Assembly (NCBI GenBank): GCA_029565735.1
Contig: JAKQNO010000088.1
Coordinates: forward strand, 1 to 34,255
DNA length: 34,255 bases
DNA from: a bacterium
Lineage (GTDB): Bacteria > Oederibacteriota > PGYV01
Direction: 5' to 3'
Numbering within the stretch: the first letter of the stretch is position 1; the number at the start of each line of letters is the position of its first letter. Positions 8,988-34,255 of this stretch are shown piece after piece. The notes beneath the pieces are model-generated. The model searched no databases, had not been told where the DNA came from, and saw only the letters and a program-made list of their open reading frames with translations. A program made the translations under genes and the position numbers.

Positions 8988-9014
8988 GCCGCGGGCTGAA
9001 GACCCGCGTCTACC
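8988..9014 (-). repeat. REP-like hairpin, family B
   Basis: Minus strand GGTAGACGCGGGTCTTCAGC then CCGCGGC; the first 26 nt are identical to 32176-32201 and differ by one base from 217-242. It lies between divergent promoters. Confidence 0.75.
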
Positions 9015-9054
9015 AGAGCAAAAATATAACCTAAACAACGCACTTTAATTTGAA

Positions 9055-25126: not shown

Positions 25127-25147
25127 AGTACAAAACATAGCACTTTA

Positions 25148-25296
25148 GCAGTTTAAGCATTTAAGCTATAGCATAGAAATAAGCAAAAGCAGTTTAAGCA
25201 TTTAAGCTATAGCATAGAAATAAGCAAAAGCAGTTTAAGCATTTAAGCTATAGCGTAGAAATAAGCAAAAGCAGTTTAAGCATTTAAGCTATAGCG
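25148..25296. repeat. 41-bp tandem repeat array, 3.6 copies
   Basis: Units begin at 25148, 25189, 25230 and 25271. The first two are identical, the third differs by one base, the fourth stops after 26 bp. Each unit starts GCAGTTTAAGCATTTAAGCT and holds short direct and inverted pieces (TTAAGC, GCTATAGC). No spacers, so not CRISPR. Confidence 0.92.
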
Positions 25297-28559: not shown

Positions 28560-31022
28560 CTATTGTACCCTTGCCGCCCAGAGCTTGTAACTTGAAATGC
28601 CGGGCATGGAAGGCATAATAAACGTATCCCAGCCGACATACGCGATAACGTCGCCGTCATCCGTCCATACAGGGCTTTTGCCGAAGAATTCATACGGCAG
28701 CAGTTCCCACAGTTCGCCGTCTATCGCGTGAACTATCCTTATTGTTGTCACGTCGTCATGGAAATAGAATTTGTGGTATGTTTCTTCAAACGCAAGGCGT
28801 TTGCTCTGATGGTCCCATGTCATATTGCTTATTTTTCCCTTTTCCGTATGGTAAATCCTTAAAGGGTTTGTGGCTTCCTTGTCAACAACCCACATTTCCT
28901 GTAATGTGGTCTTATCAGCAGGGCCTTTTTTCACGATAAAAGCAAGCCTTTCAGAAGACGGGCCCCATTCAAGTTCTGTTACCGCATGTTTGGTTGTAAA
29001 CAGGTTAAGTTCGTTTCCGCCTGTGCCGTCAAGCCTCCAGATTTCGCCTTTATCCTTATAATTAACCCCGACCGCTATTGCCTTGCCGTCATAGGACCAT
29101 TTGGGCTGAGAGAAACCTTCGCAGCGCCTTACGAATATTTCTTTATTGTCTTTTCCGTCTTTGGATATTGTCCATATTCTCCAGATGCTCCCGCTTTCCG
29201 TAAAAGCAAGTTTGATTTTTTTCTTTGCCTCTGTCAGCCAGTACGGCGAATCCGGAAGGTTTGCGCCTGAAAGCTCCTGCCTATCAGTGGAATTCGCGTT
29301 CATTATCATAAACTTTCCGTCTTTGATGTAAATAACCTTGTTCTGTTCCGAATTCCATATCGGGAACAGCGCGGCGTCTTTGGCCCTTTTTGCAGATAAT
29401 TCCCTTGGGTCAGAGCCGTCGTAATTTTTTATTTCAAGATACGTGTAACTGTCTACCATACTTACATATAATATTTTGGAGCCGTCAGGCGACCATAAAG
29501 GCATAAACTTCCTGAAGCCCTTTGTAAACTGCAGCATTTCCTGTTTTTCAGTGTCTGTCGTCCAAAGGTTTGTTTCCTGGCCTTCGGGTGCGGCTGCTAT
29601 AACAAAACTTTTTGCGTCAGGCGACCACGCGGTTTTGTGCGTTATTGCCTTTGACGGCAGGTCTATTACCCTTGCAAAACTGCTGACAAGCGTTTTAGGC
29701 CGTCCCGGAGGAGCGGAAGGTTCTTTTCTGTGAAGCGCTTTTTCATACGCTATCTTTGCTTCCTGATCTTTAAATGTTTCAACCTCTCCCGTGTAAAGGT
29801 CAGGCAGCGGCTTTTTGCCGAACCATCCAAAAATATTCTTCTTTTTTGCTTCCGCAACTTTTTCCGCATTTAATGTGTAATCGTGGTATTTTTCGCGCAG
29901 GTTGTCGGGCAGGTCCATTAATGTAAGGTTAAATGACGCGGCCCATACATTGCGGTCGCCTTTTTCCGTATCAGCACCGGAAAATATAAGAAGATTCCCG
30001 TTTTTGTTCCATACAGGAGGGTCAACATACCGAGGGACAGCAGTGTCTTCCGTTGTTTTGATTTCTGTTATTCCCCTTGTAAGGCCGTGAATTACGTTTA
30101 CCGTATTTTCGCCTTTTTTGGGATTAAAGACCGTGTATGCAAGCGCCCAGCTGTCATTTGACCAGGCAAGGTTTTCAGGCATTGATTTATACGCGGGAGT
30201 GATTTCAGTATAATTAAGGACTTCCTGCTTGGCGTAATTGAAAATCCCGGCGGCATAGGCAAGAACAAGGCCGCTTAAAAGGATTGTGACAACTGCCATT
30301 GACAGCCTTATTTCAAGCCTTCCGTCATCTTTAAGCGGGTCTTTGTTAAGCGCGGTTAAGACAAGTATAATTGCCAGCGCAGCCGCGACAATCGCGGGCA
30401 CAACAAAGTGATAATAGAATATCAAAATCATTCCTGCGGCTATTACAAGCGCCAGAAACAGCAGGATGTCGGACAAAACTTTTTTCGGGTTATGTATCAT
30501 ATAGACAATGAATTCAATGCAGAACAGAATAAAGCATACAGCAAGGACCGCCATAAGCACGTCCATGTTGATTTTCTGCGATAGCGGCTTAAATATCTGA
30601 ACTATGTAAAATACGGCAAGCGCCGATGCAAGCCCTGCAAGTATCATGCGAAGGACAGAGCCAAGCTTGGATGCCTTTTCTTTTTTTATTCGCGGATATA
30701 ATTTAATGCCGATAAACGCGGATGCAGCCAGTGCCAGGCCGCCCCCGACCGCGGGAAGCGCCATTATTTTTTCGGCAGACAGGCCAAGGAACAATAAAAA
30801 CGCGCCGCCTATTAAAAGCGCTATCTGCGCCGCACGCGTCCACATTATGGAACTTTTTTCTTCTTCCGCCTTTTCCGCGGCTATTTCTTCAGGCGTGGGG
30901 CCTGCCGGAACTTCGGGTTCCGCCGGAGCCGTCTCTTTTTCTTCTTTGCCTTTTTTTGCCTTTTCCGCGTCCGCAAGCGGATTGGGTGTAATATCTTTGG
31001 GGCCTTTATTTTCGTCTGCCAT
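28560..31022 (-). CDS. membrane-anchored PD40 (TolB-like) beta-propeller protein
   Basis: An 820-residue protein in three parts. Residues 1-55 are charged and Glu/Lys/Ala/Pro-rich. About 58-270 holds seven to eight membrane helices. The rest (about 285-820) consists of WD40-like PD40 repeats, seen as WSPDAKSFVIAA, WSPDGSKILYV, WSYDGKAIAVG and WGPSSERLAFI, as in TolB and DPP-IV-type propellers. No protease triad is evident. Function is unknown; the propeller could be a periplasmic sensor or binding platform. Two ATGs adjoin; the second (31022) is 6 nt from GGGAGG and was chosen. SppA-type protease gene lies 18-21 nt upstream and shares the promoter. Confidence 0.85.
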   Translation of the reverse strand: MADENKGPKDITPNPLADAEKAKKGKEEKETAPAEPEVPAGPTPEEIAAEKAEEEKSSIMWTRAAQIALLIGGAFLLFLGLSAEKIMALPAVGGGLALAASAFIGIKLYPRIKKEKASKLGSVLRMILAGLASALAVFYIVQIFKPLSQKINMDVLMAVLAVCFILFCIEFIVYMIHNPKKVLSDILLFLALVIAAGMILIFYYHFVVPAIVAAALAIILVLTALNKDPLKDDGRLEIRLSMAVVTILLSGLVLAYAAGIFNYAKQEVLNYTEITPAYKSMPENLAWSNDSWALAYTVFNPKKGENTVNVIHGLTRGITEIKTTEDTAVPRYVDPPVWNKNGNLLIFSGADTEKGDRNVWAASFNLTLMDLPDNLREKYHDYTLNAEKVAEAKKKNIFGWFGKKPLPDLYTGEVETFKDQEAKIAYEKALHRKEPSAPPGRPKTLVSSFARVIDLPSKAITHKTAWSPDAKSFVIAAAPEGQETNLWTTDTEKQEMLQFTKGFRKFMPLWSPDGSKILYVSMVDSYTYLEIKNYDGSDPRELSAKRAKDAALFPIWNSEQNKVIYIKDGKFMIMNANSTDRQELSGANLPDSPYWLTEAKKKIKLAFTESGSIWRIWTISKDGKDNKEIFVRRCEGFSQPKWSYDGKAIAVGVNYKDKGEIWRLDGTGGNELNLFTTKHAVTELEWGPSSERLAFIVKKGPADKTTLQEMWVVDKEATNPLRIYHTEKGKISNMTWDHQSKRLAFEETYHKFYFHDDVTTIRIVHAIDGELWELLPYEFFGKSPVWTDDGDVIAYVGWDTFIMPSMPGISSYKLWAARVQ

Positions 31023-31043
31023 CATGTACCTCCCTGAATATGC

Positions 31044-32063: not shown

Positions 32064-32126
32064 CCTATTTAACACCTAAACAGGATAAAAAGTATTATGT
32101 TATTTTTTATTTTGTATTAATTTCTG

Positions 32127-32152
32127 GTAGCCGCGCCCTTTAGGTCGCGTGG
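32127..32152 (+). repeat. diverged REP-like hairpin, family B
   Basis: GGTAGCCGCGCCCTTTAGGT then CGCGTGG: GTAG foot and loop kept, stem partly decayed. Confidence 0.55.
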
Positions 32153-32157
32153 TTTTC

Positions 32158-32245
32158 GAGCAGTTGTTTCGTTCCGGTAGACGCGGGTCTTCAGCCCGCG
32201 GAGGTTTTGAACAGTTTGTTTCGTTCCGATAGACGCAGATCTTTC
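32158..32245. repeat. 52-bp tandem duplication with one intact and one decayed hairpin
   Basis: TTTCGTTCCG occurs at 32167 and again at 32219, both followed by (G/A)TAGACGC. The first unit bears the intact family-B hairpin, the second the eroded form GATAGACGCAGATCTT. Confidence 0.65.
32176..32201 (+). repeat. REP-like hairpin, family B, intact copy
   Basis: GGTAGACGCGGGTCTTCAGC then CCGCGG, the same 26 nt as the copy at 8988-9014 read on the other strand. Confidence 0.75.
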
Positions 32246-32346: not shown

Positions 32347-33918
32347 TTATTTATTACCTTGTGAATCTGTCTTAACAATGTAAAAATCTCTTAAGCCTGC
32401 GCCATAAGATTCAGTGTATCCGGCAAAAACATAGCCGCCATCTAAAGTTTGTTTTACAGAATGAGCGCAATCCATTATTCCGGTTCCGCCAAAGGGTTTT
32501 ATCCATAATTGATTTCCTAAACTATCAATCTTTAACAAGTATGCATCAGCCGAGGCTCCGCCATTATAATTTGTATATCCGGCTAAAATATATCCTCCGT
32601 CTGAAGTAGCGCTTATAGAATAACCTTCATCTCCGCTTGTCGCACCAAAAGTTTTATACCATTGTTGGTTTCCTGCACTGTCTGTTTTTACAAGAAGGAC
32701 ACTTTGAGATATAGTATAAGACATCGTTGTTCCTACTAAAAGATACCCGCCATCCGGGCAAACCAGAACTGATCTGGCCTCATCATCTTCCGTTGACGCG
32801 GCATCACCATAATCTTTTTGCCATTCTAAATTTCCTGAATTGTCAAATTTAATCAATGTGGCCCGATGAGTGTATTCGTTAGCTCCGGAGATATCTCTCT
32901 CTCCCGCAATTATATAACCATTTCCGGGCACACTTTTAACCGAATAAGCATAGTCGTTATATGTCCCGGAAAACACTGACGCCCAAATTGTATTTCCCGT
33001 CGAATCAACTTTAAACAAGCATACATCAGATATAGCACCCACAGTCACTGATGTTTTACCTGCTAATACATATGACCCATCAGCTGTTTCTTCAATAGAA
33101 CTGCCGGAATTCCAGAGATTCGAACCATATTTGTACTCTTGATGCCACTGTTCAACGCCTGATGAATCTGTTTTTAACAGGTACAAATTGCATCTGGTTG
33201 ATGTTCCGGTGTATCCAACAAATAAGTATCCCGTATCAGAAGTCTGTATAACATCATTGAATCCCGCATAAGTGTTTAGAACATAATCTTTAATCCAGTC
33301 CTGATTTCCCGCGCTGTTTAATTTTACCACGTATCCGTGATCATTCGAAAATGAGTTTGAAAAGCCACAAACTATATATCCGCCGTCCGTGGTTTGTTTA
33401 ATTGAAAAAGCTGTCTCATCTTCTGCCAGACCATAATATTTCTCAAAGGTTTGAACTGTATTTGTTGGTGTCGGAGAAATAGTCGGTGTACTTGTATTTG
33501 TATACGTCGGTGTATTTGAAAATGTTTGTGTTATTGTGAATGTTTCTGTATTTGTGTATGTCCAGGTTGATGTATAAGAAAGCGTGTTTGTCGGGGTTTG
33601 AGTGCGTGTGTCTGTATTTGTAAAAGTATTTGTAATAGCCGGTGTATATGTATTTGTTGCCGTATTTGAATGCGTCGGAGTGTTTGTAGAGGACAATACT
33701 GCGTTTACCGTAGCTGTTTGAATCGCCTGTGCTGTTGAAGATGCATTTAAAACCAATTGTGTGGCAGTTTGAATGATGGCTGCTGTTTGAGTGAACTGCA
33801 CGTTATAGGTGGCAGTTTCATCTTCGTAGGCACCTGTAATTGGAGCGGGAGATCTATGTTTAGTACAACTAATAAACGTAAAAATTACCATACAAAATAA
33901 TACGATTACGTTTTTCAT
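32347..33918 (-). CDS. lipoprotein with Thr-rich stalk and seven propeller repeats
   Basis: A 523-residue lipoprotein. Signal ends in the lipobox TFISC (Cys18). Residues about 75-155 are a Thr/Asn/Ser/Pro stalk (TNTPTNT-like). From about 157 there are seven repeats of 47-58 residues, each with a (D/G)xGY turn (at 178, 228, 280, 332, 389, 440 and 493), then AGYT and LLKxDSxGNxxWxK. The protein ends at DSQGNK, before the last W-containing strand, while TFEKYYG at 157-163 can supply it, as in circularly closed seven-bladed propellers. Function unknown; binding at the cell surface is likely. Own promoter upstream; ribosome site AAAGGGG. Confidence 0.85.
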   Translation of the reverse strand: MKNVIVLFCMVIFTFISCTKHRSPAPITGAYEDETATYNVQFTQTAAIIQTATQLVLNASSTAQAIQTATVNAVLSSTNTPTHSNTATNTYTPAITNTFTNTDTRTQTPTNTLSYTSTWTYTNTETFTITQTFSNTPTYTNTSTPTISPTPTNTVQTFEKYYGLAEDETAFSIKQTTDGGYIVCGFSNSFSNDHGYVVKLNSAGNQDWIKDYVLNTYAGFNDVIQTSDTGYLFVGYTGTSTRCNLYLLKTDSSGVEQWHQEYKYGSNLWNSGSSIEETADGSYVLAGKTSVTVGAISDVCLFKVDSTGNTIWASVFSGTYNDYAYSVKSVPGNGYIIAGERDISGANEYTHRATLIKFDNSGNLEWQKDYGDAASTEDDEARSVLVCPDGGYLLVGTTMSYTISQSVLLVKTDSAGNQQWYKTFGATSGDEGYSISATSDGGYILAGYTNYNGGASADAYLLKIDSLGNQLWIKPFGGTGIMDCAHSVKQTLDGGYVFAGYTESYGAGLRDFYIVKTDSQGNK

Positions 33919-34167: not shown

Positions 34168-34187
34168 TCCCTAAAAGGAGAATAACA

Positions 34188-34255
34188 ATGACCGAAAACA
34201 TAAACAGTTCAAAAAAGCCCAAGTTATCCGCAGAACAGCTTTTTGAGATTTACCA
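34188..34255 (+). CDS. start of an unidentified gene, cut by the right edge
   Basis: ATG at 34188 with AAAGGAG (34174-34180) at ideal distance and a promoter just upstream. The visible 22 codons read MTENINSSKKPKLSAEQLFE and on. The stretch is charged and non-hydrophobic, so this is not an exported protein. Too short to name. Confidence 0.6.
   Translation, partial: MTENINSSKKPKLSAEQLFEIY

Follow-up and report, generated by a model that had tools for sequence, protein, structure and literature searches.

The gene at positions 32,347 to 33,918 encodes a 523 amino acid protein in which a lipoprotein-type signal and a long stalk of alternating threonines precede a predicted seven-bladed beta-propeller. 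It adds a new member to a propeller type that is widespread, and we think it probable, with moderate confidence, that it serves as a lipid-anchored surface binding protein, such as an adhesin or receptor-like scaffold, rather than as an enzyme. The window (the whole 34,255-nucleotide stretch that was analysed) is an entire contig, C68, of a 2.47 Mb genome that is assembled in 163 contigs and is 99.2% complete. The main points of the original prediction, which were read from the sequence alone, hold up well, namely the lipoprotein signal pattern, the Thr-rich stalk, the seven-bladed ring and its closure by a strand. The gene and its parts are listed here.

32347..33918, minus strand: whole gene, predicted 523 aa lipoprotein with Thr-X stalk and seven-bladed propeller (ATG start, exact ORF, profile and model)
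33865..33918, minus strand: putative signal peptide, residues 1-17, and acceptor Cys18, FIS followed by C (pattern match)
33694..33864, minus strand: linker from anchor to stalk, residues 19-75, without predicted structure (pLDDT below 50 for residues 1-153)
33457..33693, minus strand: alternating (Thr-X)n stalk, residues 76-154 (alternation statistics; the module recurs elsewhere in the genome)
33433..33447, minus strand: predicted closing strand FEKYY, residues 158-162, as fourth strand of blade 7 (full-length model; bridge residues only in the first model)
33280..33420, minus strand: blade 1, residues 167-213 (blade HMM and full-length model)
33133..33264, minus strand: blade 2, residues 219-262 (blade HMM and full-length model)
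32971..33114, minus strand: blade 3, residues 269-316, with a long B-C loop (blade HMM, full-length model and loop lengths)
32809..32955, minus strand: blade 4, residues 322-370, with a long B-C loop (blade HMM, full-length model and loop lengths)
32647..32787, minus strand: blade 5, residues 378-424 (blade HMM and full-length model)
32491..32628, minus strand: blade 6, residues 431-476 (blade HMM and full-length model)
32368..32475, minus strand: blade 7, strands A-C only, residues 482-517 (blade HMM and full-length model)

Predicted anchor, stalk and seven-bladed head

The N-terminus carries a hydrophobic signal that ends in FTFIS directly before C18, which matches the pattern of a bacterial lipoprotein signal ending in a lipobox Cys. 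Phe is unusual at the -3 position of a lipobox. The protein is thus predicted from its signal pattern to be lipid-anchored via Cys18; of the anchor originally proposed, the lipobox-type signal is present and lipidation itself is a prediction.

There are 34 threonines among the 79 residues of the stalk (residues 76-154), and they alternate with Asn, Tyr, Phe and other residues. Thr pairs at a spacing of two number 28, compared with a mean of 14.0 and a maximum of 24 in 20,000 shuffles, and adjacent Thr pairs are entirely absent, compared with a shuffle mean of 14.2 (none of the 20,000 shuffles was as low). The predicted Thr-rich stalk can therefore be described more exactly as an alternating Thr-X tract that is free of Thr-Thr. 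Its threonine codons are ACA (24), ACT (4), ACG (4) and ACC (2). The further proposal that the stalk DNA is repetitive and may vary in length is not supported, as TRF reports a single weak 18-bp array (2.8 copies, 75% matches, 33511-33561), and no orthologue was found in either sister genome, where other genes occupy the syntenic slot. Likewise, N-glycosylation of the stalk through N-x-S/T was considered and rejected, because there are two sequons in the whole protein (positions 58 and 141) and only one of these is in the stalk.

The head was examined with a blade HMM made from 167 blades of 40 other ORFs, with the window protein left out; these blades were chosen by a profile of the window protein's own blades, so that the test is independent of the letters of that protein but not of the choice. 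The HMM finds seven consecutive blades between residues 158 and 522 (35.8-63.0 bits each, 301.1 bits in total), whereas 1000 shuffled versions of residues 154-523 reach at best 8.6 bits. All seven of the repeats first noticed are recovered, but the strict (D/G)xGY motif is present by eye in only six, with DGSY in blade 3. Pairwise identity among the blades is 19-45%, and blades 3 and 4 are divergent (19-26% identity to several other blades).

A first AlphaFold2 model covers residues 150-523 aligned with the relatives L034 and L036, and has a pLDDT of 82.2 and a pTM of 0.86; L035 aligned badly and was left out of the alignments used for structure prediction. The full-length model has a pLDDT of 66.7 and a pTM of 0.66, with residues 1-153 all below 50. 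Both models, together with the fold comparison described below, agree with a ring of seven blades. The head of the full-length model has 28 strands, comprising one N-terminal strand (158-162, FEKYY), six blades of four strands and a final set of three. The last blade ends at KTDSQGNK without a W-strand, and in this model FEKYY supplies it from the other terminus, as had been anticipated. The first model has just two single bridge residues (block pLDDT 55 and 67) in place of this closing strand. Structural alignments with the enzyme CylK begin at model residue 6 or 7, which is before the first full strand. Because the first model shows traces only, the 1+3 closure via strand 158-162 is supported by the full-length model, the CylK alignments and the pattern seen in the family. 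The available text of PMC9218822 yielded nothing on propeller closure.

Loop lengths in the full-length model are 4, 5, 6, 5, 7, 6 and 5 residues for D-A and 2, 2, 9, 8, 5, 7 and 6 for B-C, whereas all seven A-B loops and all six C-D loops have five residues. The D-A and B-C loops form the propeller top face, as described for CylK (PMC8916777), and in the window model it is only on this face that loop length varies. The 167 family blades have mean entropies of 2.56 and 2.74 bits in their two top loops, compared with 2.20 and 1.53 bits in their two bottom loops. This contrast between the faces is modest, because the A strand (2.71 bits) is about equal to the top loops, the D-A loop is nearly constant in length (96% modal) and the domain ends make C-D lengths imprecise. 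The original suggestion that the loops form ligand surfaces is thereby narrowed to the top face of the model, where a ligand role may be supposed. Strand D runs from bottom to top. The stalk continues into the closing D strand and should therefore meet the ring at its bottom face; from this topology, the variable top face should point outward.

An acidic residue occupies column 11 of the blade profile in 149 of the 167 blades (122 D, 27 E), and by eye it is missing from two of the seven D-A loops in the window protein (those before blades 2 and 3). In CylK, calcium is located at the blade junctions (PMC8916777). The acidic residue conserved in D-A loops may likewise hold a blade-bridging calcium.

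The Thr-X stalk in other proteins

Paralogues with the same stalk, a search for which was suggested with the original prediction, are plentiful in the genome. The stalk alone gives 88 matches in 29 ORFs including the window protein (E up to 10), and each of the 28 others was required to contain TxTxTxT at least three times, since single low-complexity matches at high E are weak. Six of the 29 are lipoprotein-like, namely the window protein, L100, L083, L079, L086 and L098. A lipobox pattern gave seven matches in the genome; on visual inspection L076 and L081 were set aside as having ordinary signal peptides, and L098, which the pattern misses on account of its Pro at -4, was included. A looser pattern also flagged L077 and L078, which were judged to be ordinary signals, and missed L083 and L098. 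For ten of the 28 other stalk ORFs the examined stretch does not reach the 5' end of the ORF, so that their signals cannot be judged.

The heads carried by these stalked lipoproteins are diverse. L100 has NHL repeats and L083 has Kelch repeats, while L079 and L086 each have seven unnamed repeats of about 48 residues, for which Pfam (E 0.01) gives no match and NCBIfam none that is significant. L098 (277 aa) is without a significant Pfam or NCBIfam match in the scan of the lipoprotein set. Further stalked, lipoprotein-like examples from relatives are L041 (RCC1), L046 (unnamed repeats, genome G012, with one weak match outside the head in the Pfam scan) and L058, which belongs to the family of the window protein. 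Another protein, L045, has an NHL head, is cut at a contig end and falls outside the lipobox pattern.

The heads of L079 and L086 are 31% identical over 290 aligned positions, and the L086 head has no PDB relative by sequence. A seven-repeat profile finds seven domains each in L086, L079 and L046; it was built from five L086 repeats, and thus is partly circular for L086 but not for the other two. All three proteins have a leading WxxxG piece and a missing last W-strand in their sequences, which suggests the same closure as in the window protein. This unnamed seven-repeat head may represent a propeller family that lacks a model.

Pfam-named propeller heads (DUF5122-like, NHL, Kelch) are present in three of the six stalked lipoproteins, compared with five of the 23 other stalk ORFs (L078, L080, L092, L094 and L096), although these numbers are small. 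If the two unnamed seven-repeat heads are included, propeller-like heads are found in five of the six, with the 23 still counted by Pfam names only. Six stalk ORFs (L082, L089, L093, L094, L097 and L098) have glycoside hydrolase or carbohydrate-binding domains, and the module occurs in proteins of the genome with GH5, GH8 and CBM domains. Por_Secre_tail, CHU_C or FlgD_ig domains are found in 11 of the 23, some of them near or just under the cut-off. The domains of these 23 ORFs indicate that secreted proteins of this genome use the stalk as a general linker. Thr-rich segments also lie between the domains of secreted cellulases, whose Thr/Pro-rich linkers (PMC3490864) are among the closest known parallels; the window stalk differs from these in its Thr-X alternation and in its use behind a lipid anchor.

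The stalk query matches all 14 genomes of the order, own genome included (E up to 10). One possibility, which we offer tentatively and at somewhat less than even chances, is that the order has a display system wherein a lipid anchor and a (Thr-X)n stalk present propeller heads from several unrelated families so that the variable face points outward. Such proteins would together form a set of surface binders whose stalk is also used by secreted cellulases and by other proteins that have sorting-type C-terminal domains. On this same tentative reading, the heads would be drawn from DUF5122-like, NHL, Kelch, RCC1 and the unnamed seven-repeat families. It provides a testable model in which an uncultured bacterium may display binding proteins via one anchor and stalk with several ring-shaped heads. 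In the portions of the literature searched, which was mostly open-access, no description was found of a design that combines lipid anchor, Thr-X stalk and propeller. The use of one type of lipid-anchored stalk for several head families is a variant worth a wider census, and the Thr-X stalk is a convenient sequence marker by which surface proteins of this kind can be found.

Very long Thr-X tracts are present in L088 (contig C144) and L091 (contig C90), with 320 and 272 TxTxTxT positions. The start of L088 consists of repeating TETITETATETV units. Pfam DUF445 matches in these two ORFs are probably spurious and caused by low complexity.

Named relatives and possible functions

There are few named families to which the protein can be compared. 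Pfam PF17164 (DUF5122) is matched marginally, with 27.2 bits against a gathering score of 27, and the NCBIfam delta-60 repeat (TIGR02608) is matched with 41.2 bits, which is below the cut-off of 76.5. These two families have the same blade type as the window protein, but their models (36 and 55 positions) cover one repeat and not the architecture. DUF5122 has been modelled by contact prediction in one published study.

The NCBIfam model for LipL53 (NF047494) matches three stretches of the protein, the best of which is 404-504, with an E value of 2.1e-15. However, its score of 56.4 bits is far below the equivalog cut-off of 400, and membership was rejected on this basis. LipL53 represents Leptospira SBBP repeat beta-propeller lipoproteins, which resemble the window protein in being lipoproteins with a propeller of related blades; no mention of a Thr-X stalk was found for them in the consulted parts of PMC13066512. 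Judged from sequence scores, these adhesins are the nearest named lipoprotein family. LipL53-like lipoproteins are described as binding host extracellular matrix (PMC13066512), and this makes binding the natural guess for the window protein.

The sole PDB relative by sequence at E 1e-3 is CylK, with the best stretch at 299-503 (7ron). Five CylK entries also rank first in Foldseek (best E 4.9e-21), and VIA-align to the CylK entries gives Z 43.7-44.2, rmsd 2.9-3.1 and 354-362 aligned residues at 26% identity, compared with Z 32 and below for the next entries. The match runs from window residue 155-156 on and corresponds to CylK chain residues 248-657, and thus to the C-terminal domain (PDB 7ron, 7roo, 7fh6-8), which is a seven-bladed propeller with blades related to those of the window protein.

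CylK is a two-domain Friedel-Crafts alkylating enzyme, and it is conceivable that the window propeller is itself an enzyme tethered to the surface, for example a lyase, hydrolase or alkylating enzyme that resembles CylK or Vgb. This reading, which we regard as quite unlikely, draws on the nearest solved structure being an enzyme and on CylK Glu374, which appears to be aligned with window Glu431 (residue numbers taken from the alignment). However, the position of CylK Asp440 appears from the alignment to be Cys484 in the window protein, and much of the CylK similarity was judged to lie in generic repeat residues. The N-terminal calcium-binding domain of CylK, which supplies the essential Arg105 (PMC8916777), has no counterpart, since the 157 residues before the window head are signal, linker and stalk (residues 19-157 being linker and stalk). 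No catalytic residue set was found in the window protein.

Propellers can be enzymes, as in CylK, or periplasmic assembly factors of the BamB type, and this diversity counts against the reading of the window protein as a surface binder. We nevertheless prefer the latter, and envisage the following arrangement. Sec would export the protein, Cys18 would receive the lipid, and the product would then be sorted to the outer membrane. There the stalk, which is about 80 residues long (up to roughly 25 nm if fully stretched) and perhaps O-glycosylated, would hold the head beyond the envelope. With the stalk entering the invariant bottom face, the variable top-face loops would be directed outward to bind a polymer or protein ligand. 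Because cellulase and CBM proteins of the genome have this kind of stalk too, we would guess by analogy that the ligand is a polysaccharide or the surface of another cell.

The propeller family and the genomic locus

At least 44 of 59 genomes, the own genome included, match the whole protein at E 1e-3, with stalk-only matches counted and up to 25 candidates scored per genome. The same search finds at least three other propeller paralogues in the own genome (contigs C66, C18 and C89), and L092 is a further DUF5122 protein. Such abundance, together with the divergence of blades 3 and 4, would fit a dispensable, decaying or neutral member of a common DUF5122-like propeller family. We consider this to be very unlikely, because the 523-codon ORF is intact and has all seven blades and a predicted closing strand.

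There are 46 distinct bladed ORFs including that of the window, found mostly through the window protein. The start in a D strand and end before a D strand is seen in 24 of them (the ends that matter are cut in L017 and L061), another six are permuted, with a start at strand C and an end after strand B (cut in one, L066), and 16 fit neither pattern. Several orthologues are among these ORFs, and thus the counts do not represent independent events. The permuted propellers are L006 on contig C89 of the own genome, L053, L026, L019, L071 and the cut L066. Their pattern suggests that the ring closes 2+2, as compared with 1+3 for the window protein, and since the C89 paralogue is permuted, the two closure registers occur within one family.

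Related propellers are also found in 29 plasmid records, the best of which (41.7% identity) is from Methanomethylovorans hollandica, and further plasmid matches include halophilic archaea and bacteria. The blades thus occur in both archaea and bacteria. A scan of genome contigs for relatives gave three loci, and three scans of viral contigs gave none.

A head-only search of the two sister genomes, with all candidates scored, returned local matches of at most 46% identity and no orthologue. The strongest of them fall within proteins that share 84-85% identity with the C66 paralogue and 69-73% with the C18 paralogue. This search, together with a syntenic slot that lacks the gene, indicates that the window gene is absent from both sister genomes. 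The next gene downstream encodes an S49 peptidase that is 86-87% identical in the two sisters, and a protein of the OmpA family is encoded nearby. Similarity to the sister loci stops at position 32201, which is the edge of a dispersed repeat whose core is CCGCGGGCTGAAGACCCGCG. Beyond this point the sisters have an ORF for a 143-aa protein and another that we take to be MurJ-like, and they do not have the window gene.

The two neighbouring genes, and the existence of lipoprotein propellers such as E. coli BamB (named in a reference title in PMC9218822), could be taken to indicate a scaffold in the periplasm or at the inner leaflet, for example one that acts in BamB-like envelope assembly with its stalk spanning the periplasm. 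We view this as unlikely, because a core assembly factor would be expected to have orthologues in the sister genomes and because the same kind of stalk is used by cellulase and CBM proteins.

The MurJ-like ORF was not found in the own genome by a search that does find it in both sisters, and the 143-aa ORF was not found there either, in a search that had no positive control. Because the contig ends at this side of the locus, an assembly gap is as likely as loss, and the MurJ-like ORF may adjoin the contig end.

The palindromic CCGCGGGCTGAAGACCCGCG repeat is located at 32109-32244 (core 32176-32201), 8989-9023 and 216-250 in the window. It has at least 48 further matches in the own genome, some of which overlap (40 of 100 candidates scored), and in both sister genomes it is present upstream of the S49 gene.

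Two genes downstream of the window gene, an 821-aa protein (28560-31025) has matches to WD40-like beta-propellers in its C-terminal half. A tandem repeat at 25147-25295 (41-bp unit, 3.6 copies, 99% matches) lies between the genes for an IclR-type regulator and a GH5 cellulase. Finally, at 34185-34255 on the plus strand there is, by eye, the start of a divergent ORF (MTENINSSKKPKLSAEQLFEIY) that is cut by the contig end.
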